Source: Prevotella sp. (GTDB taxonomy: Bacteria; Bacteroidota; Bacteroidia; Bacteroidales; Bacteroidaceae). From it: a stretch of DNA of 64,000 nucleotides. Positions 5,862 through 53,129 of the stretch are shown here, one piece after another (positions within the stretch are counted from its first letter, which is position 1; every line of letters begins with the position of its first letter). The stretch covers positions 1 through 64,000 of the forward strand of contig JAFYJN010000099.1 in the NCBI GenBank assembly GCA_017538105.1, given 5' to 3'. The notes beneath the pieces are model-generated. The model did not search any database, was not told the origin of the DNA, and saw nothing but the letters and a program-made list of their open reading frames with translations. The translations under genes were made by a program, and so were the position numbers.

Positions 5862-6018
5862 TGTTCCATCCTTATTGAAGTTTCGCTTTCGCCACCGTAT
5901 ACCCACTGTTCAGAAGAACGATAGAAATGGTTAATTGCCAGGTGATGGCTTAACTACCGAGCGAAGCGATAGCTTCTTAACTCCTTAACTACAAAGAAAT
6001 TGAACTGAATAAGAACAA

Positions 6019-6044
6019 CGAGGCGAGCCAACAGGCTCGCCTCG
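6019..6044 (-). terminator. Terminator of the 1419-aa protein / small peptide operon
   Basis: An 11-bp perfect stem CGAGGCGAGCC/GGCTCGCCTCG with a 4-nt loop. Read on the minus strand it is followed by the moderately T-rich TTGTTCTTATTC, matching the end of the minus-strand operon. It may also act on the converging lipoprotein gene. Confidence 0.7.
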
Positions 6045-6071
6045 TCTCATCTTGAAGTACAACGTCTGGAG

Positions 6072-6266
6072 CTATTCCCAGACATTCTTGTGCGCCCAGT
6101 GTAAGTCTTCTTCTTCAAACAGGGCCTCGTTGGCCGCTTCTTCACTGGGTTCATCCTCCGGGATGGAGGTCTCAATCAACCCACCGTCGCCTTCACCATC
6201 CAACAACGGTTCGGTACACAGATTGAGTGCTTTTACGCTCGGACTATTATAGATTGCTTTTTTCAT
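6072..6266 (-). CDS. Small acidic peptide with ALFEEE motif (second copy)
   Basis: This 64-aa peptide begins MKKAIYNSPSVKALNL, has an acidic Gly-containing middle, carries EALFEEED and ends HKNVWE. It starts 10 nt after the stop of the 1419-aa secreted protein gene and is followed by a terminator, so it is the second gene of that operon. Its layout matches the peptide at 3606-3803. The pairing of each peptide gene with a large exported protein gene suggests a linked role, but the function is unknown. It contains one Cys; no leader cleavage site is obvious. Confidence 0.75.
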   Translation of the reverse strand: MKKAIYNSPSVKALNLCTEPLLDGEGDGGLIETSIPEDEPSEEAANEALFEEEDLHWAHKNVWE

Positions 6267-6276
6267 TGTCGTTTTT

Positions 6277-9200
6277 TTATTTCCTCACATATTTCTTTCC
6301 TTGTTTAATCACGATACCGCGATAGTTGTCGCCAACACGCTGACCGGAGGTGTTCCATACGGCACCTTCGCCATTATGATTCTCCTGGGTGATACTATCG
6401 ATACCAGTGGTCTCGTCAACGTAGAGCACATCGTTGGCATTGGGGGTGGCCAGGCGCAGGTAGGCCTTGCCCACACTCACCGTCTGACCGGCCTTGGCCT
6501 TCTGGAAACCGGTCTTGCCTGTCGAGGTCTTCACATAACGGTACACATAGCCGTAGTCGGCAGCGGTCACGGTGTATACCTCGTCGAGGTTAGCCACCAA
6601 CAGGTTGTCGCTGTAATCGTCGGCACTCTCTGTCGTTGCCAGAGGAATATGGTAGGTGCCGGGTGTTCCCTTTACCACGATGCCCGTCTCGGCGGGTACG
6701 ATGGTCACAGGCGTCAGCCGCACACCGCCTGTCTCTACCTTCTCCACGGCCTTGTAGGCTTTCACCTCAGCAGCACTGAAGTTGAGGGCGTACGGTCCGC
6801 TGTAGGATGTGCCGGTGGCACCTGTTGCGATGGTGATATCGATACCGTTGTCCAGCACATAGTTGTTTCCTTCGGAGTCGCCCGACGAGAGGTCGACGGT
6901 TCCTTCGGGAGTCAGGGTGATATAGCCCTCGGCCTCAACGGTCACGGTGTAGGTCTTATCGGTTTGCACCACCTCCACGTCGAACGTGCCGTCCTCGCCC
7001 GTGGTCGCGGAGTATTCTACATCGTTGGCATCGTTGCGTAGCGTTACCTTTGCACCGGCCACAGCCTCTTCACTGGCATTCTTCACGCTGCCGGTGAAAT
7101 GGCTGGCAGCAGCCAGGGTGAAGTATGCCACAGGTGTACCGCTGTCTTGTGTCCAAGAGGAAGCTGATGCTTTCTTGTAGTAGGCTCTCAGACCGCCGCT
7201 GGTGTTGTCGTAGTCGTAGGTGGTGAATGCGTAAGAGCCATGACCATTGTTCTCAACATACAGACGAATGCGCGAGGTGCCGTCGTACACGATGGGGGCT
7301 GCGGACATGTCAAGAACAACGTCGTCTGCGCTGTTGGCTGCTACACCGTTGTAAATGACATATTCCTGCATCTCGCTCTTGTTGATGGCACCGGCAGTGA
7401 ATGTAGTAGTGGCATCTTCCATGCCAACCCATACCGTAAGGTTCACTTGGCTGAAGTTCTTGTCGGAACCGCCCGATTTCTTGAACGTAATCTTTGTAAT
7501 CTTGCTGTTGGCATTGACACCAAAGGTTGCCAGCATTTCAGGCGTATAGGCGAAGTCAGTCATCACACCGCCGTCAGCATCTGCATCAAACCAGTAGAAC
7601 GGGGTCTTGTTGCTGGTGCCGTTCTTGTTTCCCACCTGTACTTCGCCACCTGCGCTCTCGGCTGCTACCGTTAGCGTATAGGCATCGGTTTGTACCGTCG
7701 TGGTGGGAGCGGCCAGGGCAATATAGCAGTTGTTGAAGGTGCCGGCCTCGTGCGGCGTGAAGGTGAAGGTGAGTGTAACGCTTTCCATCGATGCTACGTC
7801 AACACTCTCCGCCTCAGCCACGGCCTTGCCGTCAACATACAGCGTAGCGGTGTAGTCGGCGGCGGTAAGCGTCGTCGCATTGTAGTTAGTTGCCGTCACC
7901 GTGGCGGTGTACACATTGTTCGTGGTGGCGGTGGTAGGAGCATCGAAACTCTCAATCTTGAAGTCGACACCTTCCACGAGTTGGATGTCTTTCTCAAGGC
8001 TTGTGCCCTGGAAGGTCACTGTCAAGTCGTCCTCGCTCATCGGGAAGCAGTTCTTCTCTGTGTAGTCATGGCTCAAGGTGTAGGTCTTGGTGTCCTGCAT
8101 CACCTCGAAGTCGAACTGACCCTCGCTGTCGGTAGTGCCACTGTAGGTAACACCGTCTTCTGAGGTCAGCGTGATGGTGGTGCCGGCGATGGGCGTCACC
8201 GTCTGGTCGGCATTCTTGATGGTCAGAGTACCGGTGAAGTGGCTCGCCTCCTTGTCGTAGAGCAGGGCAATCCACGGCAGTCGTGAACTGTCGTTGCCAT
8301 AGTAACTGTCGCTCCATGTGCTCTTTGCCTTGTAAGCGGCGGTATAGAGGTTGGATTGTGCAAAATTGACACCAGTCTGCGTGGCCTCCTGAACGCACTG
8401 GGCATGGATGCGCAGGTTCGTACCGTCGTACTCAAACGGTTCCGCAAGGGTGATGGTCATGATGTCCACCATGTTGGCTTCGCCATAGCTGCCGCCTTTC
8501 TTGAAGGTATAGCTGCCATCGAACACCTTGGTCATGCCCGTAGTGTTGCTCAGGTCATCTGTGGGGTCGCTGCCCACGACGGGTGACGTGGCTTCGGTGC
8601 TGCCTATCCATACCTGGACGGGAGCGGACACCTCACTGCTGCTGTAACCCTTGAACACGATGCCTTTAATCATCGTGCCAGCCGTGATGCCATAACTCTG
8701 CAAGTCGGAGGCCGTCCATATCATGTCGGAATAGCTGCCGGTGGAAGAGGTCTGTACGGGGATGGAAGTGCCATACGAATAATAGTTGCCGATGAGGGCC
8801 TCACCCTTCGGCTCTTCCTCGCTGAAGGTAATCTCCACTTCGGAACTGCGCACGGTGGAACCGTCGGCCAGCGTCAGTTCGATATAGCTGTTGAATGTTC
8901 CCGTCTCATGCGGCATGAATGTGAACGAGAAGGTCTTCTCTGTGCGTGTGGTGAGACTCTGTGATGCTGCCTCGGCCACTGCCGTGCCGTTGATGTAGTA
9001 TTTGGCGGTGGCGGTCTCCGTGGCGTCCTTCAGGTTTTTCACCGTCCATGTGGCGGTCACCTCGTTATTGACCATACCCTCCGTGGGAAGGTTCTCTTCC
9101 ACGCTGATGATATCGTGGGCCTTCTCAACGAGTGCGAAACCGTAGAAATTATCAAGTCGCGCACCACCGTTGAACATGATATAGTAGTCGCCACCCTCGG

Positions 9201-10536
9201 CTATGGTGAAGTTGAATTCGGAGAAGTCGTAGTCACTCGATGAGCTGCCGCCCACCTGGGCACCGGTATAGTCTTCTTCCTCGATGGTCTTCACGGTGGT
9301 CCATGTCTTGCGGTCTTTCGACACACTCACGGTCAATGTATAACCGAAGAAACTCGCTCCGTATTTGGCGGCTTCGAAATAGAAGGTTTCACCGTCTTCG
9401 GCATGGAGCAGCGGGGTGATGAAGATGGGGTTGGTGCCCGGTGAGTAGTCGGTGGGACTGAGGTAGTAGCCGTTGGCGGCGAGATGGACGTAACTGTCAA
9501 TCTTATACTGACTGTAGTCGCTGCCCTCAGGCCAGGTCTGGTCCTCGAAGTCCCACGACCAGCGCGGGTTGGCCTCTTCCACTTTCATGGATACCTTCGA
9601 GGTCTTCACGCTCGCACCGTCGGGGAACACGATTTCGGCGTAGCTGGTGTGGCGACCAAGGGCGGTCGGGGTGTAGGTGAAGGTGAATGTCTGTGTGGCA
9701 TTCACGTCAACAGCTACAGCCTCGGCTGTGGCCACTTCCACATCGTCGAAATAATATTTCACGGTATAGCCGCCGGCTTCCTCGTCGATTCCTTGGTTCA
9801 CAATAGTAAAGCTCGCTTCGAACGGCTCGTTGATGGTGGCCTGTGTCGGCAGGTTCGTCTCCGTAATCTTGAAGTTGTGCTCACTGGCCACACCCGTCTC
9901 AATCCAGAGGAAGGGAGAGGAAACCAATGAGAAAATACCTGTGTTCTGGCGGAACATGGTGTTCTTGAAGTCGGTAAAGGTTGATTTCGCGCAATAAGCA
10001 TTCAACGGTCTGTTCAACTTGGCATCGCTTTCGGGCTTGACAACCATCACGCGCAGGTTGTTGCCGGCATAACGGAAACTGTTGGGCACGGCAAATTCCA
10101 TGATGATACCATCATCACCAGGGGCACTCACGGTGTAATCGCCATCGTAAATCAGCGTCATCCCCAACTCGTCAGGGTCGGCTATGTCGTAGTTGTACTC
10201 TGTGGTGCTGCCTTCTACGTATTGGGTGGTAGCGGGAGCATCATCGGTGGTATTGCCTATCCAAACCATCACGGGAATGGTACCCGTATCGCCTGTGTAG
10301 ATGCCTTTATAGACGATACGTTTGATGCCTGTTCCTTCTTCCAATCCGGCTGCTGTGAGGTCTGCCTTCTTGTAGATGGTCTCAGAATAACTTTGTGTCT
10401 GGTTGGCGGCAATCAGACGATTGCCGTAAGTCGTCTGTTGGTCGGCGTCACCCACAAAAAGTAAATCCTGCGCCCACACCTGTCCGTATCCGAACAGCGT
10501 GAGCATCATGAGTAACAATAAACTGAGTTTTTTCAT
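6277..10536 (-). CDS. Large secreted multidomain protein in a cobalamin-riboswitch unit
   Basis: The 1419-aa protein has a signal peptide ending near VWAQ. It then alternates ~130-residue domains starting FVGDADQ or IGNYYSYG with CARDB-like beta domains (the LPTxxxxNE...FTFTPHExGTFNSY pattern recurs three times). A choice-of-anchor-J-like segment follows the first of these (WSWDFEDQTWP). Two carboxypeptidase-regulatory-like domains (HFTGTLTIK...GTTDSEGQFDFEV and HFTGSVKN...TGEDGTFDVEV) lie in the middle and late parts. The C-terminus is the Prevotella-style module (WNTSGQRV, RGIVIKQGKKYVRK). It is likely exported and adhesive or carbohydrate-binding, with no catalytic motif seen. Only a cobalamin riboswitch with its own promoter lies upstream, so the gene is probably repressed by B12. 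A link to B12 capture is inference from that position. Confidence 0.85.
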   Translation of the reverse strand: MKKLSLLLLMMLTLFGYGQVWAQDLLFVGDADQQTTYGNRLIAANQTQSYSETIYKKADLTAAGLEEGTGIKRIVYKGIYTGDTGTIPVMVWIGNTTDDAPATTQYVEGSTTEYNYDIADPDELGMTLIYDGDYTVSAPGDDGIIMEFAVPNSFRYAGNNLRVMVVKPESDAKLNRPLNAYCAKSTFTDFKNTMFRQNTGIFSLVSSPFLWIETGVASEHNFKITETNLPTQATINEPFEASFTIVNQGIDEEAGGYTVKYYFDDVEVATAEAVAVDVNATQTFTFTYTPTALGRHTSYAEIVFPDGASVKTSKVSMKVEEANPRWSWDFEDQTWPEGSDYSQYKIDSYVHLAANGYYLSPTDYSPGTNPIFITPLLHAEDGETFYFEAAKYGASFFGYTLTVSVSKDRKTWTTVKTIEEEDYTGAQVGGSSSSDYDFSEFNFTIAEGGDYYIMFNGGARLDNFYGFALVEKAHDIISVEENLPTEGMVNNEVTATWTVKNLKDATETATAKYYINGTAVAEAASQSLTTRTEKTFSFTFMPHETGTFNSYIELTLADGSTVRSSEVEITFSEEEPKGEALIGNYYSYGTSIPVQTSSTGSYSDMIWTASDLQSYGITAGTMIKGIVFKGYSSSEVSAPVQVWIGSTEATSPVVGSDPTDDLSNTTGMTKVFDGSYTFKKGGSYGEANMVDIMTITLAEPFEYDGTNLRIHAQCVQEATQTGVNFAQSNLYTAAYKAKSTWSDSYYGNDSSRLPWIALLYDKEASHFTGTLTIKNADQTVTPIAGTTITLTSEDGVTYSGTTDSEGQFDFEVMQDTKTYTLSHDYTEKNCFPMSEDDLTVTFQGTSLEKDIQLVEGVDFKIESFDAPTTATTNNVYTATVTATNYNATTLTAADYTATLYVDGKAVAEAESVDVASMESVTLTFTFTPHEAGTFNNCYIALAAPTTTVQTDAYTLTVAAESAGGEVQVGNKNGTSNKTPFYWFDADADGGVMTDFAYTPEMLATFGVNANSKITKITFKKSGGSDKNFSQVNLTVWVGMEDATTTFTAGAINKSEMQEYVIYNGVAANSADDVVLDMSAAPIVYDGTSRIRLYVENNGHGSYAFTTYDYDNTSGGLRAYYKKASASSWTQDSGTPVAYFTLAAASHFTGSVKNASEEAVAGAKVTLRNDANDVEYSATTGEDGTFDVEVVQTDKTYTVTVEAEGYITLTPEGTVDLSSGDSEGNNYVLDNGIDITIATGATGTSYSGPYALNFSAAEVKAYKAVEKVETGGVRLTPVTIVPAETGIVVKGTPGTYHIPLATTESADDYSDNLLVANLDEVYTVTAADYGYVYRYVKTSTGKTGFQKAKAGQTVSVGKAYLRLATPNANDVLYVDETTGIDSITQENHNGEGAVWNTSGQRVGDNYRGIVIKQGKKYVRK

Positions 10537-10862
10537 ATAAGGTTATATTTAGAAATTTGATATAGGTCGAATTTTACAGAAATCTAACTTTTCCTCTCCA
10601 GCACTCTTTTCCCCTCCTTTTCCAAAGGAGTGGCAGGGGTGGTTTGTCAAACACAGTCCCAACCTCTTTTAATCTTTTAATTTTTTAATCTTTCTAATCT
10701 TTTAATCTTCCAAATCACCATTCCCCCTCCCTTTGGGAGGGCCAGGGTGGGTGTCAGGTAGGGGTGGCTTGTCAAAAACGGTCCTAGCCGCTTAAAATTT
10801 TGAAATCTTTTAATTTTGAAATTTCCCCAAAACCCTCCGCGGGGCCATGTAGGGGAGTAGGA
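10537..10862 (-). other. Long leader between cobalamin riboswitch 1 and the 1419-aa gene
   Basis: About 325 nt with no gene and no TAnnTTTG box on the minus strand. It holds TTTTAATC arrays (10665-10712 and ~10795-10825) and two versions of the CCCTCCC/GGGAGGG hairpin element (near 10610-10640 and 10723-10765). If transcription starts at the promoter near 11075, all of this is leader RNA, and the hairpins could serve as the expression platform. Confidence 0.6.
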
Positions 10863-11006
10863 GCGATGGCAGGTCTTCTGACTCGCCGCCCGGTGGTGAA
10901 CGCCTTCCCGACTCATCGTCAGTGGCTCTTCTGTTCACACCGCAGAAGGACGGCTCACAGCAGCGGGACTGTCCGGGATTCTCACCCGTGTTCCCTTTTT
11001 AATCGC
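10863..11006 (-). promoter_or_regulatory. Cobalamin riboswitch 1
   Basis: On the minus strand the element shows the cobalamin aptamer core in order: GGGAACACGGGTGAGAATC, GGACAGTCCCGCTGCTGTGA, AGCCACTGA (complement at 10920-10926), GGGAAGGC, and AGTCAGAAGACCTGCC. The ends close as ATCGC/GCGAT. Such riboswitches lower expression when adenosyl- or related cobalamins bind. Downstream lies only the 1419-aa secreted protein gene and its small partner peptide. This is unusual because the import genes have their own copy at 21.2 kb. Confidence 0.93.
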
Positions 11007-11074
11007 ATGGCCAAAACAGCCAAAGCGAACCATTTCCTGTGAGGAGCGCAACAATACGCGCATTTTTTATACTG

Positions 11075-11082
11075 CAAAAGTA
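11075..11082 (-). promoter_or_regulatory. Promoter box for riboswitch 1 transcript (TACTTTTG)
   Basis: On the minus strand TACTTTTG matches TAnnTTTG and sits ~70 nt upstream of the cobalamin aptamer. It shows that this riboswitch unit can be transcribed separately from the btuB operon. Confidence 0.7.
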
Positions 11083-11136
11083 CTCCTTTTTTCTTTCCGC
11101 ACCAAAAATTTCTGCACTTATTTACTCTTACATAAG

Positions 11137-14100
11137 TCAACGTTCAACCTTTCTCCAGTGCCCATCTTTCGTCTTCACGACATAAAGACCATGCTGAACG
11201 AAACGTTCCAATTTCTTGCCGTCAAGTGTATAGATGCTTTCGATGTCATCGTCAGTGAGCGTGACATCGACGATGCCTTCGGGAATACTCACCTCCACAT
11301 GCACCTTGGCAAACTGTATCCTGCCGCGCTGGGTGGCTTGTATGACCAAGTCGAAAGGCTCGGTGTAGCCACTTACGTAAAGCGTGCCTTCTGGTGTCAA
11401 CTCCAAGGCATCAAGTACGTCTTGCTCGGGTTGATCGGCGAAGTCATATACGATGCGGCCTACGCAGTCTGTGGGGTCGAACAGGGTCGACAAATCCAAT
11501 TCATCTTCGATGACCACGGTGCCCGCATCGTTCACATCACGCTCGCCGTTGAAGTCGTCAATGCAGAAATAGGTGGGGGTGGTCAGGCCGTATTGATTGC
11601 TACGGCTGCCTTCCAGTTTGAAACTGATAGTGCTCACTTCACCCAACGGACGCAGGTCCACCCACTGCCAAGTGTCGAGGTAGTAATGCTCCACTTCGTC
11701 ATCGTCGCGGTAGTCGGCCAGGTAATAGGTTGTCTGGCTGGTAGTGCCGTCGGCATGGGTGCCGGTGATGACCATGCGCAGGTAGTCGCCCTTGTGGAAG
11801 GCACCGGGAGTCATTCCGTCACCGTTATGGATGGCATCGACGGTCCATGCCTCGTTGGTCACGTAGAAACCGTCAATCACATCGGCCTCTTTGTTCAGCA
11901 CGTGGATGCTGCCGCTGTAAGGATAAGCCACTACATAGTTCTCGCTGCCGTTATGGCCGCAGCCCACAGCATTATTGAACTGATCGGGATATAGTTGAAC
12001 GAAGTTAGTAGCGGTGCGGTTGGCATAGGCAAACTCACTCCAATAATTGTATTCAGGCATATAGGTGTTCTCGAACAGGTAACTGCCGCTCACAAAGGAG
12101 CCGCTGAGTTGGTTACCGCACCAATAGCTTTCCTCATCTAAATAGAGGTTCTCGAAGGTGGCTGTTACGGCTTTGCCTGTAACAATCAACCGAACGGTGT
12201 CGCGGCCCTCGATGCCGTTAGCATCGATGACGATGGCCTGCCAGTCATCGCACTCCTGCGGCGTGGCATCGACGGTACATGTGAACGTACCAGATTCAAG
12301 GTCGTTCTCGCTCATCACTTCACGACGGCCGTTGAGCCATGTCACATGATAGGGAGCCTCACCATCGACAATGGTAGCGGTGAGCGTAGTCGTAGATCCT
12401 AATTTCATGGTGGTGGTACCGCTGATGGTTATCTGGGGTACCGTCAGTTCCGTCAGTTCATGACCTTCGGCAACGAATGCTTCGGTGCTGTAGAGAATGC
12501 TCTCCGTGCCTCGCAGACTGCGCAGCACGATGAAGGCACGGTAGGTCTTGCCCGTTTCCAGTTCCGTGGCTGTGAGAGAGCCCTCGCTGCCCTTGTGCAG
12601 TGCCACACGCTGGCCGCTGGCCAGCACCTCGGCGGCAGTGGGTGTCGTGCTGTCTTCCACCAAGAGTACGAAGGCCTCGCTGTTCATGTCGGCAGCAAAC
12701 AGAATACGGGCGGTGGTGTCGGTGTTGTCTGTCACGCTGGGATAGCCGTCGTTCATCGCAGGAGCACGGTCATCGGCATTGTATTCGTAAGCACCGAGGG
12801 TAGGTTGCTCAGCACGTGTCGTGCCGCTGATGTCGTCATTGACCCACGACAGCTGTTCACCACTGACCAAGCCTCCGGCATCGGCAGGTTCCAGAATCTC
12901 ATCGTCGAGGAAGGTGACCTCTTCATCAAGACCATCGGTCTCGCCCGATTGTTTCACCCAGAGGGTATGAGTGGCATAACCTGTGTCGCCAATCAATGCG
13001 AACAGGTTACCATTGGTGTGCCCTGCCTGATGGCGCCACGACACAGGACTGAGGTAACTGTCATTGCTTATGCGGTACACATAACCGTGACTGCTGTTCT
13101 GCAGTATGTTGTTTACCATTTCCACACCGGCTCCCATCTTGTCGTTCAGGAAGAAGATGGCACCGCTATTCGTGCCTCGGGCAATGAGGGTGTTGTGGGC
13201 AATGCGCAGATAACTCGAGCTGCTGTTTATAACCATGGTGTAGTCGGTGTTGCTGATACCGTTGACCACCACTTCGTTGTTGACCACGTTGACGGGACAA
13301 TTCTCGCTGCCGTTGACCAAACGGATATGTATGCCGGTGGTCTCGCCGCTGCTGCCAAGATATAGGTGGTTGCCCTCTATCACGGCACTCTCGTCGTAGG
13401 TGTCACGCACCTGGAAATCGATGCCACGGAAGTTGCTGCCGGTCTTTTGCGAACGGATGGTGTTGTGGATGACTTTTACACCGCTCTCTTCCATCACGTA
13501 GATGCCTTTGCTGCCTTGGTCGACGAAGGTGTTGTTCTCAATAACACCGCCACGTTCCTTGGGTAATACCACATAGCCGGTACCGCCCATACGGATGCCG
13601 ATGTAGCCGCCTTCCAGCAGACAGTTCGTTACTGTCAGGTAGTCGTTGTTCTTGTTGGCGACGTTCGCAGCATAGGTGTTGATGAGCTTGATGTCGCCAT
13701 TGTTGTAGTTTTGGCTCGTGGCACAGTGGATATAGCAGTGGTCGATGGTGATATGGCGGCTCTCATTGGAAATATGCACCACGCCGGGGAATGACAAGTC
13801 CTGAGTGGTGATGTCCAAACCGCGTAGTGTCACGTAATCACAATGGTCGATGGTGAACACACCGAATTCCTTCGACATCTTGTCGTCGCTGTATGGGGGT
13901 TCATCATAGTGGTCGAAATAGATTTTCACGTCTTCCCAACTGCCTGTCTGGCTCTCAATCACCAACGGGTTGTTCTTCGAGGTGCCAGGGATGGCGGGCA
14001 CCTTCACCACCTCGTTGTAGATGTCAGGAAGGATGCTGATGGTCACGGGACCGCTGACACCGCTACTAACGGCATCGACGGCGGCTTGAATGGTGCCGTA

Positions 14101-16716
14101 ATTACCGCCACGACCCACGGTAAGCTTTCCCTTGAATCCTTCAGAGACGGTCATTACTGCAGGCGTCACTTCGCTCAATGTGAATGTTGTACGGTCGGTG
14201 ACAAGCAGGGTGGGGGTGATACTCAGCGTACTGCCAGTGGGTGCGTCTGCCCTCACATCAATGACAACATGGAAATAATAGGTGCCGTCTTTCCCGAAGG
14301 TATAGCTGCCTGTGACAGCTGATAGGTCGCCGGTGGACTCTCCGAAGAGGGCGGTGGGTGAGAAACCGCTTTCACCGTCGGTAGCATAGACGGCCACACG
14401 GTCGATAGGCTCGCTGCTTTCGTTGTTGAACGTGAACTGCTCAAGAGTCATCTTACTGCCTTCACCGGCCACACTGATGCCGATAGTGTACATCAATACA
14501 TCGGAGGCTCCTTGCATCACTGTGGCAGACGGTGCACTTACGACACTCACTTCGGTAATCTCCTGTCGTTCTTCGGCATAAGAACTCACGTTGATGGCGA
14601 AACCATCGGGTTGGTTGAATGTGCTCTTCACCACGAAACGGGCGGTGAGCTTGCCGTCGGGAGCACTACTTACGAAATAGTCGGCCTGGGCCGTGGCTCC
14701 ACTCAGGGCGGCTAACAATTGCGCTTCGGCTACTTCGCCACCATTATATATATATAAGGTGTCCTTGGTGCCCAAGGAGAGTTGCTGGAAATCAAAACGT
14801 ATCTGTTCGCCTGAAGTAAGCGGATAGAAGGTCACGGTGCCGTCGAACTTCTTCGTGGCTTTGCCGTCCTCACCACCATCATCGTAGAAGAGGATATGCT
14901 GGCCATGGGCTACACCAATCTCGCCGTTATCGCCGGACGCCAGCAGATAGATGTCTTTTACCGTACGTGAACCGTCGGGGTCGCCATTGACGACTGCAAT
15001 GTCGTTGCCACCGGCATTGATGCTTACCACACGGGCATCAATCTCGTCCTCGCCCTCAGCATCGTCGCTCACATTACCACGAAGTCGGAAATAATTGTTG
15101 CCCTCCTGCAACTGAAGCGGAGTGGGAAGGGTTATCACGGTGGTCTCGCCCTCTACGATGGCGGTGCCTATGCTGGGGTTGGTCACCTCACCATCGCTGC
15201 GACCAAGGTAGTAAAGCGACAATTGCGACAACGGACTGCCCTTGGTATCGATGGTGATGCTGTTCAGGCTGATGACGCTCTGGTCGCCCATGGCGGTGAT
15301 GTTCAGCGTGAGCAGGTCGATGTTCATGGCGTGGTTGGGAACGATATCGGTACTTGCTTGTGTCACCTCCACCTTATCGACGGCCATGGGCTGCGACAGG
15401 TATTCACTCACTTCGGCCTGCCATCCGGTGCTGTTGTAGTTCCAGTCGTTGGGACAGAACAGAATGGTCAGCGAGCCGTCGTCGGCGGTGCTGCGGACGA
15501 TATGGCCGGGACCGATGTCCTTGTCTTCTACGTTGTTCAACTCCCACAACAGAGAGCCGGTGGTGCCCGAACCGCTGTAAATCTTGAACTTCGACTTCAC
15601 ACCACCATAGTAACTGTTGGTGTACTGCAAACCGAACTCGGTGAAGTCAATCTGGCAGACCATCCCCTCATGCTTGGGATGGAAAATGGTGATACGGTCG
15701 TCATTGCCCGGTTCGTAGCGGTGCTGGTATTCGCTCACGTCACGTGTGCGGAAATGCAGACTCCCGTTCACGGTGCGTTCCTGTGTGCCTTGGTTGGCGT
15801 AGCAATAGACAATGTTGTCCACGGGACGGCTACCTTCAGGATTACCGCCGCTGATGGCTGTCGTGTTGCCACTGAGGGTGATGGCGGTGAGGCCGCCATC
15901 GACGGTCGTTCCTTCCTCGGCACCGTCGCTGATGTCATAGACGAGGAAGAAATAGTTGTCACCCTCATATAGGGTGATGGCTTCATCGCTATCAATGGTA
16001 AACTCATCCGATGTAATAACGGTGCTGCCTACAAGCCGTGAACCGCCCATGCTGTCGCTGATGCCGCCATAGTATAACTTGGCCGAGGCCAGATTGGCAA
16101 AGGTGCCGGCAGTAGTGAAGGTGAACAGGTCGGCGGTCAGTGCCGGTTCGGTATCGCGGGTGATGAGGTTGAAATAGAGGATGGGTTGGTTCTTGTCGTC
16201 AGCACATACAGGTTCGAGGGTGGGGTGGTTGGCCTCCACATGGTCGAAACTCATGGGTTGTGGCGTGTATTGGGTAACCAGGGCTTCTATACCGTCGGCG
16301 GTCTGCTTCGTTCCGTTGGTGCCGAGGAAGATAGTTATCGACCCGTCGTCGGCTGTGGAATGGATGATGCAGGTTTCCCCGTGGCGCAGGGTCTTCAACA
16401 ATTGGCTGGGGTCCTGGCTGTGACCGTTGTACACAGCGATGTATTGGTAGTAGATGGAGCCGTTGGCCAGGGCAACTTTCTGGAAGTCTACCTGTATCTT
16501 CTTCGTCGCATCTGCGGGAACAAAGGTGATGAGACCGTTGTATTCGGAGGTGATTTCTCCATCCTTGCCGCCATCATCGTAGAGCATGATGGGGGTGTCG
16601 CCTACGGTAATCTCTTGATGCTCATTGTTCATGAGCACTTCAATAGACTCGTCGGCTGTGGCATTTCCTGCTATCAGCAGCAGGAGTCCGGTAATGAATA
16701 GTATGTGTTTTTTCAT
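11137..16716 (-). CDS. Giant secreted protein: CUB-like, beta-helix and DUF4465-like domains
   Basis: The 1859-aa protein has a signal peptide (ending ~NATA). Three CUB-like segments, marked by YDDGGxDG and VYNGHS or IYNGGE, lie near residues 40-150, 320-430 and 640-750. They alternate with domains of the YLSQPMAVDKVEV...LYYLGRSD type, which resemble BNR-associated N-terminal domains. A right-handed parallel beta-helix region (TVGRGGNYGTIQAAVDAV, then many VxNN and IxNNTF turns) spans ~880-1260. An Ig-like segment and a domain from about residue 1520 resembling DUF4465 (TATFENLYLDEESYW, TYFCIDDFN) follow. The end is a Prevotella-type module (YTLDGKKL). It is the last gene of a unit behind btuB and btuG; DUF4465 proteins occur in Bacteroides B12 loci (BtuH-like), so a cobalamin-related surface role is likely but unproven. 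Confidence 0.85.
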   Translation of the reverse strand: MKKHILFITGLLLLIAGNATADESIEVLMNNEHQEITVGDTPIMLYDDGGKDGEITSEYNGLITFVPADATKKIQVDFQKVALANGSIYYQYIAVYNGHSQDPSQLLKTLRHGETCIIHSTADDGSITIFLGTNGTKQTADGIEALVTQYTPQPMSFDHVEANHPTLEPVCADDKNQPILYFNLITRDTEPALTADLFTFTTAGTFANLASAKLYYGGISDSMGGSRLVGSTVITSDEFTIDSDEAITLYEGDNYFFLVYDISDGAEEGTTVDGGLTAITLSGNTTAISGGNPEGSRPVDNIVYCYANQGTQERTVNGSLHFRTRDVSEYQHRYEPGNDDRITIFHPKHEGMVCQIDFTEFGLQYTNSYYGGVKSKFKIYSGSGTTGSLLWELNNVEDKDIGPGHIVRSTADDGSLTILFCPNDWNYNSTGWQAEVSEYLSQPMAVDKVEVTQASTDIVPNHAMNIDLLTLNITAMGDQSVISLNSITIDTKGSPLSQLSLYYLGRSDGEVTNPSIGTAIVEGETTVITLPTPLQLQEGNNYFRLRGNVSDDAEGEDEIDARVVSINAGGNDIAVVNGDPDGSRTVKDIYLLASGDNGEIGVAHGQHILFYDDGGEDGKATKKFDGTVTFYPLTSGEQIRFDFQQLSLGTKDTLYIYNGGEVAEAQLLAALSGATAQADYFVSSAPDGKLTARFVVKSTFNQPDGFAINVSSYAEERQEITEVSVVSAPSATVMQGASDVLMYTIGISVAGEGSKMTLEQFTFNNESSEPIDRVAVYATDGESGFSPTALFGESTGDLSAVTGSYTFGKDGTYYFHVVIDVRADAPTGSTLSITPTLLVTDRTTFTLSEVTPAVMTVSEGFKGKLTVGRGGNYGTIQAAVDAVSSGVSGPVTISILPDIYNEVVKVPAIPGTSKNNPLVIESQTGSWEDVKIYFDHYDEPPYSDDKMSKEFGVFTIDHCDYVTLRGLDITTQDLSFPGVVHISNESRHITIDHCYIHCATSQNYNNGDIKLINTYAANVANKNNDYLTVTNCLLEGGYIGIRMGGTGYVVLPKERGGVIENNTFVDQGSKGIYVMEESGVKVIHNTIRSQKTGSNFRGIDFQVRDTYDESAVIEGNHLYLGSSGETTGIHIRLVNGSENCPVNVVNNEVVVNGISNTDYTMVINSSSSYLRIAHNTLIARGTNSGAIFFLNDKMGAGVEMVNNILQNSSHGYVYRISNDSYLSPVSWRHQAGHTNGNLFALIGDTGYATHTLWVKQSGETDGLDEEVTFLDDEILEPADAGGLVSGEQLSWVNDDISGTTRAEQPTLGAYEYNADDRAPAMNDGYPSVTDNTDTTARILFAADMNSEAFVLLVEDSTTPTAAEVLASGQRVALHKGSEGSLTATELETGKTYRAFIVLRSLRGTESILYSTEAFVAEGHELTELTVPQITISGTTTMKLGSTTTLTATIVDGEAPYHVTWLNGRREVMSENDLESGTFTCTVDATPQECDDWQAIVIDANGIEGRDTVRLIVTGKAVTATFENLYLDEESYWCGNQLSGSFVSGSYLFENTYMPEYNYWSEFAYANRTATNFVQLYPDQFNNAVGCGHNGSENYVVAYPYSGSIHVLNKEADVIDGFYVTNEAWTVDAIHNGDGMTPGAFHKGDYLRMVITGTHADGTTSQTTYYLADYRDDDEVEHYYLDTWQWVDLRPLGEVSTISFKLEGSRSNQYGLTTPTYFCIDDFNGERDVNDAGTVVIEDELDLSTLFDPTDCVGRIVYDFADQPEQDVLDALELTPEGTLYVSGYTEPFDLVIQATQRGRIQFAKVHVEVSIPEGIVDVTLTDDDIESIYTLDGKKLERFVQHGLYVVKTKDGHWRKVER

Positions 16717-17934: not shown

Positions 17935-19095
17935 TCAATGTTCAATTTTCGATGTTAAAAAAGCTGCATGTCCGGGAATGTCGCCTGTGGCGGTGTCCCA
18001 TTTGTAGTTGCCGTCCTTGTCGAAACAGAATAGCAGACCGCTCGACACATAGTTGGTGGCATCCATGATGTACAAGTCGCGTGTCTGGGGGTGTACCTTG
18101 ATGCCGTATGGTGTGCGTATCTTGCGACCTTCGGGCAGGGTGATATGACTCTTCGTCTGTACCTCCAATGTCTTCAGGTGCAGGATGCCGTAGTTGTTCT
18201 GTTTCTTTCCGTTCATGGTCTCGCTGCCGTAGAAATACAGACTGTCGCCGCAGATGTCGAGGTCGGCAACGGGTGTGTCTATCTCGCGCGTCAACAGCAT
18301 GTCGCCATTCACGTCGGGCTCCAACAGGTACAGGCGCGAGGGATTGTTCTCATAGTCGCCGCGCGATGCCACCCACAGACGGCCATAACGGTCGGCGCGG
18401 ATGCGGAATAGGTTGGGTGCCACATTGATATGCCGCTCCACGGTGAATGTGGAGAGGTCAACCACGCTCACTCTGTTGTCGTATCCCAACCCCTCGGTGG
18501 CATTGTAGCCGCCACTGTTGGCTACGTAGAGTTTGCCGCCGACAATGGCCAACTCATCGGGCTGATAACCCACGCTCACCGTGCCTACCACCTGAAGACT
18601 GGTGGTGTCAACCTTGTACACGCTGCCTAAGACTGACTGGCCATTCACCGCACCAACGTAACTGCTCACATAGGCATAACCGTCGGCAAAGGCCATATAA
18701 CGGCAGTTGGGAATATCCACATGGCCAATGCTCACGGCGGTGAAAGCGTCGGCCACTTCCACCTTGTTGCTACAGTTGATGACCATCCACAGACGGTGGC
18801 CATAGATGCCGATGTCGTTGCCCACGTCGCCCAGGTTCATCGTCACCGACGGGTTGCGAGAGGGGTAGATGTTGCGGTGGTATTCACCGGTGGTCAGGTC
18901 GAGGTAGTCGAGCGTGGCTTTGTTTGAACCCATGTTGCCCTCGTTGAGTACATATAGGCCGAGGTATTCGGAATTGTCATCTGCCGTCACATCACCGGTG
19001 TTGTCGGTCATGGGATAATAAATCAGCTCCTCGTCGCGGCAGCCAACGAGCAGCAGCATGAATAGCAGCAGGTATGTCAGGTTCCTCTTCTTCAT
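17935..19095 (-). CDS. btuG: BtuG-like cobalamin-binding surface lipoprotein (beta-propeller)
   Basis: The 386-aa protein starts with a lipoprotein signal peptide ending LLLVGC, followed by RDEE, an acidic run like the surface-export signal of Bacteroidetes lipoproteins. The rest is a YncE/DUF5074-type seven-bladed propeller with repeated phrases such as GLYVLNEGNMGSNKATLDYLD, GYQPDELAIVGGKLYVANSG and VSVVDLSTFTVERHI. In Bacteroides, BtuG is the surface lipoprotein that captures B12 with very high affinity and hands it to BtuB. The ATG overlaps the btuB stop by 4 nt (ATGA), so the two are translationally coupled. Operon position behind a cobalamin riboswitch and btuB supports the call strongly; substrate range cannot be told from sequence. 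Confidence 0.88.
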   Translation of the reverse strand: MKKRNLTYLLLFMLLLVGCRDEELIYYPMTDNTGDVTADDNSEYLGLYVLNEGNMGSNKATLDYLDLTTGEYHRNIYPSRNPSVTMNLGDVGNDIGIYGHRLWMVINCSNKVEVADAFTAVSIGHVDIPNCRYMAFADGYAYVSSYVGAVNGQSVLGSVYKVDTTSLQVVGTVSVGYQPDELAIVGGKLYVANSGGYNATEGLGYDNRVSVVDLSTFTVERHINVAPNLFRIRADRYGRLWVASRGDYENNPSRLYLLEPDVNGDMLLTREIDTPVADLDICGDSLYFYGSETMNGKKQNNYGILHLKTLEVQTKSHITLPEGRKIRTPYGIKVHPQTRDLYIMDATNYVSSGLLFCFDKDGNYKWDTATGDIPGHAAFLTSKIEH

Positions 19096-21104
19096 AACGT
19101 CAGTTCTAAACTAATGGCATAGTTACGTTTGGGCATGGGGTAGTTCACGATGACATCGTAATCCTGACTGAGCAGGTTATTCACCTCCAATGTCGCTTTC
19201 CAGTGCATCTTCCCCATCTGTCGCTCGTAGGTCAGTCCCAAGTCGCTGGTGTACCATGGTTCCATGTGGTTGTAGATGATGTTCTCAGGCTCGTTGTAAC
19301 GCTCGCCGGCGTAGATGAAACTATAGTTCACACTCCAACTTTTCCACGTGGCTCCCAAGATGAGCGAACCGCTATGCCAGGGTATATAGGGCAGTTGGTC
19401 ATTATAATAAGGTGTATCGCGGTCGGTCACGTCGCGCGCGTCTTGGTAGGTATATTGCACACGACCCGTAAACAATAGGTCGGGTAGGGGGGCTAGCGTG
19501 GCTGAGGCTCCCACATCAACGCCGTGAATCTTTACCTTGCCCATGTTGAGCATTGTCCAACGGAACTGCTGTCCCTTGGGGTAGGCCACAATCTTGTCGG
19601 TAACGTGGTTGTAGTAACCGTCAATCTGGAACGACAACTGTCGAAGCATGCCGCGCCGCCAACTTTTGTCGTACATCATACCTATATCATATTGAGTGGC
19701 ACGTTCGGGACGCAACGAGGCGTTGCCTAAATCGGTGTAGTAGAGGTCGTTGAACGTGGGCATGCGGAAACTCTCTTTCACATAGGCACGCAACGACAGG
19801 GCATGGTCGCTGAAGGGAAAGACGTTGACGAATAAGGCGGGAGTGAAACGTCCGCGGTCGTTGGTGCTATTGTCCAGACGGGTGCGGTCGTGGATAAAAC
19901 TGTAGAGGATGCTGGCCTGCGCTTTGACACGCCAGAAATCGATGCCCGTGGCCAGTGACACGAGGTGCGACCAACGCGTGGGACGGGCAAAGCGGTATGT
20001 CGTGGCGTTCAACTTGTTGTATCGGGCGTCGTAACTCATGGACACGCTCCATCCGCGCATCACTTCATACACGTGCGAGGTGGTGAGGTAGAACTCTTGC
20101 TGGAAATATTTGTTGTCGACAGGCAAGAGGGTAGGGTCGTTGTTCTCATAATGGGTACGGTAGTAGGCCCACTTGCCCATCACGCGGGTGCTGTAACGGT
20201 CACCGAAACTCTTCTGCCATGCGCCTTGCACAAAGGTGTTCAGGTCACCCTGACGTTCGCCGCGCCGCCACACATTGTTGACGATGGCACCGGGGATGCC
20301 GCGGGCACTGTTATACAGGTAGCCTTTCACATGCCAATAGCCTTGGTCAATCACGCCGTGGAGGTTGGCTTCCACACGCTCGGCATGGATATCACCATTC
20401 TGTCGTGTCGCCGTGGTGTCCCAAGCAACACTGTGGTCGATATTGAAACGGCGGTAACGGAACTTATACTTGCCGCTGGCGGTAAGGAAACCAGCGGAAA
20501 ACGAAGCGCTGACATCGTTGCTCACTCTCTGCTCCCATAGGGCGGTACTGCGGAACATGTCGCTGGAGCCGTATGTGGCCTTGAAACGTAGATGGCGTTG
20601 TTCGCCAGGTTGAAAACGGGGGCGCCGAGTACGTATATATACGCTGCCGGCGTTGCCGAAGTCGCTGGCTGTCTGGAAGATGGCACTCTTCTGACCATTG
20701 TAGAGCGTCACCTCTTCCACATTGTCCAACGAGAACTGCCCGAGGTCGATCTGTCCGTTCTGGGCGTTGCCCAACTCGATACCGTCATAGTATATGCCCA
20801 AATGGTGGGTACCCATGGAACGGATGTTCACAGTTTTGATGCCGCCAACACCACCGTAGTCTTTCAACTGGATGCCAGAGAAATAGCGCAGTGCATCGGC
20901 GATGCTGTGACTGCTCATGCGCTCCAATTCCTTGCCGCCCAGTTTCTGCGAGGGCACCACCTCGCGAAAAATGAGTTTGCCACGGACCACCACCTCGCCG
21001 ATGCTGCCAATGGTGTCGGCTGGGGTGGAAGTCACATCTGTATCTTGGGCAAACAACATGTCCGTCCAGAAGACAATAGCCAAAAGAAAAGCGAGACGCT
21101 TCAT
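19092..21104 (-). CDS. btuB: TonB-dependent cobalamin receptor BtuB
   Basis: The 670-aa outer-membrane receptor has a signal peptide ending MLFAQ, a TonB-box-like IGEVVVRG, and a plug domain (SIADALRYFSGIQLKDYGGVGGIKTVNIRSMGTHH, here cited only as the region ~75-110). Barrel repeats follow and it ends in the hydrophobic ISLELTL typical of TonB receptors. It would import cobalamin across the outer membrane using TonB energy. I chose the ATG at 21102-21104; the frame stays open to 21158, but that stretch belongs to the riboswitch. A cobalamin riboswitch lies just upstream and a BtuG-like gene overlaps the stop. The receptor is at the short end for Bacteroidetes, with no extra N-terminal regulatory domain. 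Confidence 0.92.
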   Translation of the reverse strand: MKRLAFLLAIVFWTDMLFAQDTDVTSTPADTIGSIGEVVVRGKLIFREVVPSQKLGGKELERMSSHSIADALRYFSGIQLKDYGGVGGIKTVNIRSMGTHHLGIYYDGIELGNAQNGQIDLGQFSLDNVEEVTLYNGQKSAIFQTASDFGNAGSVYIRTRRPRFQPGEQRHLRFKATYGSSDMFRSTALWEQRVSNDVSASFSAGFLTASGKYKFRYRRFNIDHSVAWDTTATRQNGDIHAERVEANLHGVIDQGYWHVKGYLYNSARGIPGAIVNNVWRRGERQGDLNTFVQGAWQKSFGDRYSTRVMGKWAYYRTHYENNDPTLLPVDNKYFQQEFYLTTSHVYEVMRGWSVSMSYDARYNKLNATTYRFARPTRWSHLVSLATGIDFWRVKAQASILYSFIHDRTRLDNSTNDRGRFTPALFVNVFPFSDHALSLRAYVKESFRMPTFNDLYYTDLGNASLRPERATQYDIGMMYDKSWRRGMLRQLSFQIDGYYNHVTDKIVAYPKGQQFRWTMLNMGKVKIHGVDVGASATLAPLPDLLFTGRVQYTYQDARDVTDRDTPYYNDQLPYIPWHSGSLILGATWKSWSVNYSFIYAGERYNEPENIIYNHMEPWYTSDLGLTYERQMGKMHWKATLEVNNLLSQDYDVIVNYPMPKRNYAISLELTL

Positions 21105-21152
21105 CCAAAAATCGTTTATATGCCACGCTAACCCAAGAGCACGACATGTGTC

Positions 21153-21315
21153 TGGCAAAGGCAGGTCTTCTGACTTCGTTGACCGTCGGCGAACGCCTTC
21201 CCGAAATATTCAGTGGCTCGTTGTTTGCGGCGATAATGTCAACTCACAGCAGCTGGACTGTCCGGGATTTGCACCCGTGTTCCCTTGTTCATCACGTATA
21301 GTGAACCAATTGCCA
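21153..21315 (-). promoter_or_regulatory. Cobalamin riboswitch 2 (btuB leader)
   Basis: The minus strand carries GGGAACACGGGTGCAAATCC, GGACAGTCCAGCTGCTGTGA, AGCCACTGAA (complement at 21211-21217), GGGAAGGCG and AAGTCAGAAGACCTGCC. The ends close as TTGCCA/TGGCAA. It lies 49 nt upstream of the btuB ATG and would shut the uptake operon down when cobalamin is plentiful. Confidence 0.95.
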
Positions 21316-21326
21316 TGTTGATGCTG

Positions 21327-52954: not shown

Positions 52955-53033
52955 TGTCCTTATTGTTAATTTTTTAATCATTTAATTTTATAATCTTTTA
53001 ATCTTACACAATAAGGGGCATATAAGATAAAAC

Positions 53034-53108
53034 AATTTCCTCCGCCGGCATTACCCGGATCAGGTTCGAGGGTGTAATCTCAGCCCAAACGGTAGGGCAC
53101 CCCTTGAC
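53034..53108 (-). promoter_or_regulatory. TPP (THI-box) riboswitch
   Basis: On the minus strand the core reads AGGGGTGCC, GGGCTGAGATTACACC (TCTCAG complement at 53078-53083), GAACCTGATCCGGGTAATGCC (region 53042-53065) and GGCGGAGGAAATTG. This is a typical thiamine-pyrophosphate aptamer about 80 nt upstream of the receptor ATG; it should lower the operon when TPP is high. Confidence 0.96.
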
Positions 53109-53129
53109 TTACTCTCTGTAAATCGCCTG

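Follow-up and report, generated by a model that had tools for sequence, protein, structure and literature searches.

Reporters for the second, internal cobalamin (vitamin B12) riboswitch of Bacteroides thetaiotaomicron are repressed by B12 (PMC12751083). BtuH is a measured B12 binder (PMC8941943), and B12 is also bound by BtuJ proteins of the DUF4465 family (PMC12751083) and by eight distant members of that family (PMC13398666). Xylanibacter ruminicola KHP1 carries four cobalamin riboswitches, of which two directly precede genes with an annotated role in cobalamin transport or biosynthesis (PMC11575231). Here, a 64,000-nt stretch of Prevotella sp. DNA (assembly GCA_017538105.1, contig JAFYJN010000099.1, positions 1 to 64,000 of the forward strand; hereafter the window) was analysed with respect to the second of its two cobalamin riboswitches, which stands ahead of the gene for a 1419-amino-acid (aa) secreted protein, P0001. 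We give slightly better than even chances to the view that this element is a working OFF switch on its own transcript, that the giant surface protein and a small peptide are made in B12 scarcity, and that they form an accessory to B12 scavenging.

Organization of the riboswitch-led unit

A contig scan with P0001 residues 24-1219 identified three relatives, RGIG7570, RUG216 and RUG812 (metagenome-assembled genomes of rumen Prevotella or Prevotellaceae), which make up, together with the window, the four species compared. The evidence supports an independently transcribed unit, in which a dedicated promoter and aptamer stand ahead of the genes for a non-transport surface protein and a peptide. 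Its order is promoter, aptamer, 1419-aa protein, 64-aa peptide and terminator-like hairpin (Table 1), the peptide open reading frame (ORF) having already been placed behind the protein by the initial annotation. The aptamer matches the entire RF00174 model (positions 1-189) with 92.7 bits, against a gathering threshold of 31.5. It had been called complete before, which holds, but the bounds then given (10863-11006) are slightly short. By analogy, the element is predicted to bind cobalamin and to change expression.

As proposed earlier, the aptamer has a promoter box of its own: TACTTTTG is located ~25 nt ahead of the point where the aptamer model begins and is itself preceded, another 20 nt upstream, by a TTTG box; both boxes are exact in all four species. 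The TAnnTTTGC pattern occurs 19 times in the window (6.9 expected) and is found just upstream of each of its two cobalamin riboswitches. The statement that no other TAnnTTTG box precedes the gene applies to exact boxes, which are absent between aptamer and start codon in each of the four species, but not to the two one-mismatch boxes present in the window. The CARDB and carboxypeptidase-regulatory-like domains attributed to the protein both exceed their Pfam cut-offs (CARDB, 49.7 vs 22.7 bits; CarboxypepD_reg, 59.8 vs 32.3 bits), and a signal peptide was recognised by eye.

Directly upstream lie the genes for BtuB, BtuG, BtuH and a DUF4465 protein, headed by the riboswitch that was correctly assigned to the import genes at 21.2 kb, which makes the P0001 unit the second in a B12 locus. 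The DUF4465 domain in the 1859-aa upstream gene and the identity of the 360-aa gene as a BtuH homologue are additions to the initial annotation, in which the surface protein had no recognised cobalamin role. Since the unit directly follows btuB-btuG-btuH-DUF4465, the protein is probably an uncharacterised accessory of the B12 locus and not an unrelated factor.

Conservation and genomic context

Matches to P0001 with E <= 1e-60 were obtained in 15 of 398 genomes of the genus; four of them (own genome included) are at least 77% identical, and the other 11 show 30-43% identity. The arrangement of riboswitch and P0001 gene is narrow, being limited to a small clade (4/398 genomes). All four genomes with a close homologue have RF00174 upstream of the P0001 gene and the preceding btuG-btuH-DUF4465 genes. 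In RGIG7570, an ATPase gene separates the two units, with promoter, aptamer and P0001 gene remaining together. A search of relatives for riboswitch, protein and peptide, as suggested at the outset, found this order in the three other species, with the peptide in the two whose contigs reach it. No aptamer adjoins the distant homologue in the 5 of the 11 genomes that were scanned for RF00174.

Between the window and RUG216, the most distant of the relatives, the aptamer core is identical in 143 of 174 columns (82%), compared with 249 of 448 four-fold degenerate sites of the P0001 gene (56%) and 160 of 480 spacer positions (33%). Because aptamer identity exceeds that of silent sites and spacer to this extent, the aptamer is under selection in this comparison. 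Such conservation is good evidence of a switch in use, without proving that its use concerns the P0001 gene.

Across the genus, 102 cobalamin riboswitches were viewed in context (95 from relatives, 2 from the RGIG7570 contig, 3 from other contigs of the own genome and 2 from the window). Many lead btuB and btuG. DUF4465, detected with a profile of our own, is present in the led operon of 18 (17 loci with no sense gene left out). Three riboswitches (L062, L080 and L086) lead btuH together with a giant DUF4465 protein, and four (L038, L054, L077 and L121) a DUF4465 protein without btuB. P0001 is read as a B12 accessory mainly because further switches within B12 loci recur in this way and lead B12 accessories. 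By rule, 17 of the 102 loci have no sense gene and two more are situated at a contig end; the rule overlooked a sense ORF (+166 to +564) in each of L079, L081, L091 and L101, and probably also one in L120.

Several other riboswitches were recorded in passing. One in the own genome (G000:C58:22911-23096, L038) precedes the gene for a 512-aa protein in which DUF4465 occurs twice; a signal-peptide-like short ORF lies in between. Another (G000:C5:67840-68023, L040) stands, like L113, L124 and L129, directly ahead of a gene whose product we take to be an SLC13-type transporter; this arrangement is kept in four genomes, and the gene is not evidently a B12 gene. The window also contains a thiamine pyrophosphate (TPP) riboswitch at 53019-53114 (minus strand, 62.4 bits).

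The leader between aptamer and start codon

The aptamer is followed by a P13-like hairpin whose CGCGGA loop recurs in relatives' riboswitches ahead of btuB or btuH (L056, L086, L105). The hairpin is kept across species; RUG216 shows a compensatory exchange at one outer pair, and in RUG812 one pair is disrupted. A putative kissing interaction between L5 and L13 would comprise three to four pairs as judged by eye. Between hairpin and gene lies a spacer that is only 33-51% identical between species.

Several observations weigh against control of P0001 by this switch. The spacer is built from repeats, with 57 further matches across the own genome, and in the window ~290 nt separate the end of the P13 hairpin from the start codon. 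Spacers measure 209-456 nt in the four species, compared with a distance of within ~80 nt between the aptamer and most btuB genes, and three of the four contain one-mismatch promoter boxes. A terminator-like site was sought in 10500-11200 and not found, and the leader has a folding energy close to that of its shuffles (z 0.12). Only two of the 102 riboswitches, those of the window and RGIG7570, lead P0001, and sequence searches of the protein did not reveal a B12-binding domain.

A dedicated terminator in the leader was rejected as a candidate: none was found, and the GC-rich hairpins of the spacer are genome-wide repeats. These interspersed intergenic repeats share the core CCTCCCAAAGGGAGG, of which the window holds five (10537-10830, 1396, 24193, 59904 and 63166).

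The repeat-filled spacer and the distance of the start codon from the P13 hairpin would also fit a decoupled switch, whose aptamer once led another gene before repeats filled the leader, leaving the P0001 gene on a weak promoter of its own or little affected by B12. One-mismatch boxes (GACCTTTG / AACCTTTG) in two relatives and the two in the window could provide such a promoter. However, aptamer identity is well above that of silent sites and the hairpin is kept in all four species, where the switch has no other gene to act on, which makes decoupling unlikely. B12 control of the P0001 gene is likely, as judged from these sequence comparisons. The initial annotation had stated that B12 probably controls a surface factor; the conserved switch is consistent with this, but we infer the direction of control, its reach to a start codon ~290 nt past the hairpin across a repeat-filled spacer, and the role of the protein.

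If the element acts as an OFF switch, by analogy with measured Bacteroides riboswitches, ample B12 would shorten or silence the P0001 transcript; ligand binding might take effect on the gene through a halt in translation with subsequent Rho-type termination, or through processing. In B12 scarcity, P0001 would be produced alongside the neighbouring BtuB/BtuG/BtuH/DUF4465 system and would most likely act outside the cell as an accessory, be it a scaffold, an aid to capture or a factor for attachment, and not in transport.

The surface protein and its companion peptide

P0001 might bind corrinoids itself through one of its unassigned beta-sandwich domains. Its gene lies in a B12 locus together with those for BtuG, BtuH and DUF4465, families with measured B12 binders (PMC12751083, PMC8941943, PMC13398666), and DUF4465 has a jelly-roll fold. 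Against this, Pfam, NCBIfam and PDB sequence searches gave no DUF4465, BtuG or BtuH match in P0001, and paralogues of the same architecture at contig C82 of the own genome lack a riboswitch; we regard direct binding as quite improbable. A model of residues 575-1139 (predicted local distance difference test, pLDDT, 67) matched immunoglobulin (Ig)/CARDB-type modules. No B12-binding fold was among the matches listed, where absence proves nothing, and the predicted Ig/CARDB-type fold says nothing on B12 binding in either direction. The model of residues 24-480 (pLDDT 52) was too low for use.

P0001-like paralogues are encoded at C82 and on contig C39 of genome G019, and RF00174 was not found on either contig. 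Small acidic peptides whose ends are alike were seen behind both genes at C82, behind one of the two at C39 and behind homologues in G070 and G086; no small peptide follows most of the remaining P0001 homologues that were read. The peptide is thus not B12-specific, since similar ones trail riboswitch-free paralogous giant genes, and protein and peptide are best regarded as a more general surface module, the B12 switch being what sets the present case apart. The 64-aa peptide itself had no match in Pfam or NCBIfam. Members of this acidic-peptide family lie 3' of giant surface genes with or without a riboswitch (G000:C82, L041 8647-8826 and 12738-12950; G019:C39, L042; L013; L014; window 6072-6266).

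These observations bear on a further reading, in which P0001 is a general variable adhesin that takes no part in scavenging and for which B12 only signals the niche. It is consistent with the modular CARDB/CarboxypepD_reg architecture, the domain mosaic in RGIG7570, the different C-terminus in RUG216 and the occurrence of the companion peptide with riboswitch-free paralogues, but not readily with the stable position beside the btu operon in all four species, so that we consider it doubtful and prefer a B12-scavenging accessory.

Domain exchange was apparent among the 1419-aa orthologues (L138 9932-14203, L139 9932-13765), residues ~965-1135 being strongly divergent in RGIG7570. The C-terminus of the RUG216 orthologue, inside which the contig ends, differs from the usual one and presumably contains a dockerin repeat. 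The C-terminus of P0001 resembles what we take to be Prevotella type-A-like ends, which would fit a cargo of the type IX secretion system (T9SS).

Table 1. Features of the two riboswitch-led units in the window.
Feature	Position	Strand	Details
Bacteroidota-type promoter	11075..11106	-	TTTG 11106-11103 and TACTTTTG 11082-11075; exact boxes in 4/4 species; TANNTTTGC scan
Cobalamin riboswitch aptamer	10851..11049	-	RF00174, 92.7 bits, full model
Regulatory hairpin (P13-like)	10824..10856	-	Outer stem TCCCC/GGGGA, inner stem GGCCC/GGGTT, loop CGCGGA
Long untranslated spacer of interspersed genomic repeats	10537..10823	-	57 more matches in own genome
1419-aa secreted modular beta-sandwich protein (P0001)	6277..10536	-	CARDB and CarboxypepD_reg; orthologues 75-87% identical
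64-aa acidic peptide	6072..6266	-	Kept in RGIG7570 and RUG812; RUG216 contig stops short
Terminator-like hairpin, 13 bp	6017..6046	-	Closes unit after peptide ORF
First cobalamin riboswitch, btu operon leader	21143..21326	-	RF00174, 86 bits
btuB, TonB-dependent receptor	19092..21104	-	TIGR01779 E 6e-33, under model cut-off; Plug domain; ATG at 21104 preferred to listed TTG within aptamer
btuG-like propeller lipoprotein (DUF5074)	17935..19095	-	Domain match
btuH homologue, 360 aa	16797..17879	-	7biz_A E 1e-43, 8blw_B E 1e-60
1859-aa secreted protein, C-terminal DUF4465 (BtuJ-type B12-binding domain)	11137..16716	-	Pfam E 4e-52; 9hmu_A E 1e-22

A candidate riboswitch-made small RNA directed at mutA

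A by-product of this work is weightier and more surprising than the finding on P0001. We hold it fairly probable that an orphan cobalamin riboswitch of the own genome (G000:C53:143247-143750; L039 5248-5750) drives a small RNA that pairs with the mutA leader (G000:C14, L186), silencing the B12-dependent methylmalonyl-CoA mutase at low B12 and releasing it at high B12. An alignment of riboswitches without a close gene showed a common 3' element, in which the conserved stretch ACGTGTATTATTATATAAGT, or a shortened form of it, has a hairpin and a T-run behind it. This pattern stands behind 16 of 104 aptamers, including that on C53 of the own genome in the variant form, and a gene follows in a few cases. 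In 40 genomes, an 18-mer of the element occurs 12 times (11 genomes; 0 control matches): nine occurrences are on the same strand 36-136 nt downstream of an aptamer, and three come 31-43 nt after a gene's stop codon, with a same-strand aptamer 1.6-4.2 kb upstream. The window has no match to the motif, which places the small RNA outside the P0001 unit.

Leaders of mutA were tested because mutA and mutB of KHP1 are raised by B12 through a mechanism described as not known in that study (PMC11575231). The set consisted of 20 genomes with a recognised element (own genome and 19 relatives), with start codons assigned by the conserved N-terminus. All 20 possess mutA, and in all 20 its leader carries a complement to the element that ends 9-23 nt ahead of the start codon. 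The longest exact complement spans 8-15 nt, a length matched by at most 5% of dinucleotide leader shuffles in 17 genomes. Pairing energies, compared with plain shuffles for 10 of the first 12 genomes, gave <=5% in nine and 12% in G094. Among 248 other leaders, 0-13 pair equally well, a comparison that favours mutA leaders by their higher A+T content (73% vs 59%). In G052, a changed base of the element is matched by a complementary change in the leader, and the shortened element of the own genome fits its own mutA leader with a one-base bulge. Of seven chosen (non-random) genomes without the 18-mer, six had no mutAB match and one (G004) had mutAB.

In a blind search, the leader-side 14-mer was sought in 199 genomes and matched in 88. 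Among 139 listed places, 90 were read (30 offered loci, 20 picked from the forward strand and 40 in list order), which comprised, by strict pattern, 32 elements (8 already recognised), 17 mutA leaders, none of which belongs to the 20 genomes, and 41 other places. The last group included three element-like variants and four places before one type of gene, the rest being scattered. Seventeen of the 24 new elements were examined: 15 lie in a same-strand stretch led by RF00174 (13 close, 2 at 3.4-4.3 kb), one has no aptamer within reach and one is on a contig that is too short.

The four places before one gene type (L241, L270, L283 and L301, in G028, G044, G013 and G207) have the 14-mer complement just ahead of the gene start. 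We assume this gene to be a lactate permease; judging by its leader, it may be a second target for the small RNA.

Other results speak against the proposed pairing. Shuffles matched the longest complement more often in G061 (6.5%), G028 (6%) and G076 (24%). With an ungapped 16-nt score, native and swapped pairs differ little (14.15 vs 13.54); in the own genome, whose pairing needs the one-base bulge, the native pair scores 12 and swapped pairs 12.5. Dinucleotide shuffles reach the native 16-nt score in <=5% for 16 of the 20 genomes, the exceptions being G094 (7%), G061 (65%), G076 (35%) and G000 (35%). G078 shares the changed element base of G052 with an unchanged leader, resulting in a G-U pair. 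The mutA leader of G004 has an 11-nt match, and an element was not found in this genome; that of G080 contains the full 14-mer, and the element pattern is absent behind its four riboswitches.

If the small RNA operates as proposed, it would be made at low B12 and block mutAB, and at high B12 the riboswitch would stop its synthesis and thereby turn mutAB on. Such a B12-switched RNA would explain the induction of mutAB by B12.

Comparison with known systems

Antisense-acting riboswitches are represented by two known cases up to the account in PMC9943018, one of them a cobalamin switch on the strand opposite Listeria pocR. In each case the target is the gene that the switch faces (PMC9943018), whereas the proposed small RNA would act in trans. 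A riboswitch-linked small RNA in this bacterial group was not found among the entries listed by searches of the open-access literature (including PMC7160235, PMC9943018 and PMC11575231), subscription literature being outside its scope. If true, it would constitute a trans-acting, riboswitch-made antisense RNA in Bacteroidota. B12 enables propionate production by rumen Xylanibacter/Prevotella, and the host makes glucose from propionate; if mutA is the target of a small RNA under B12 control, the way in which B12 raises methylmalonyl-CoA mutase would become directly testable.

The giant surface protein of the window suggests that Prevotella cobalamin riboswitches drive non-transport outputs. The B12 regulon of rumen Prevotella would then extend beyond uptake to a large surface protein that is a candidate B12-scavenging accessory. 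KHP1, a related rumen bacterium, also has several cobalamin riboswitches; compared by description, the relevant parts of its report name no such surface protein (PMC11575231). BtuH (PMC8941943) and BtuJ/DUF4465 (PMC12751083, PMC13398666) are surface accessories of B12 loci, and one of each is encoded directly upstream in the window. The 1419-aa protein differs from them in having neither domain. Cobamide operon 1 of B. thetaiotaomicron likewise comprises two riboswitch-led units with accessory surface proteins (PMC12751083). There, the second switch leads btuB1 (PMC12751083), whereas that of the window leads a giant non-transport protein.

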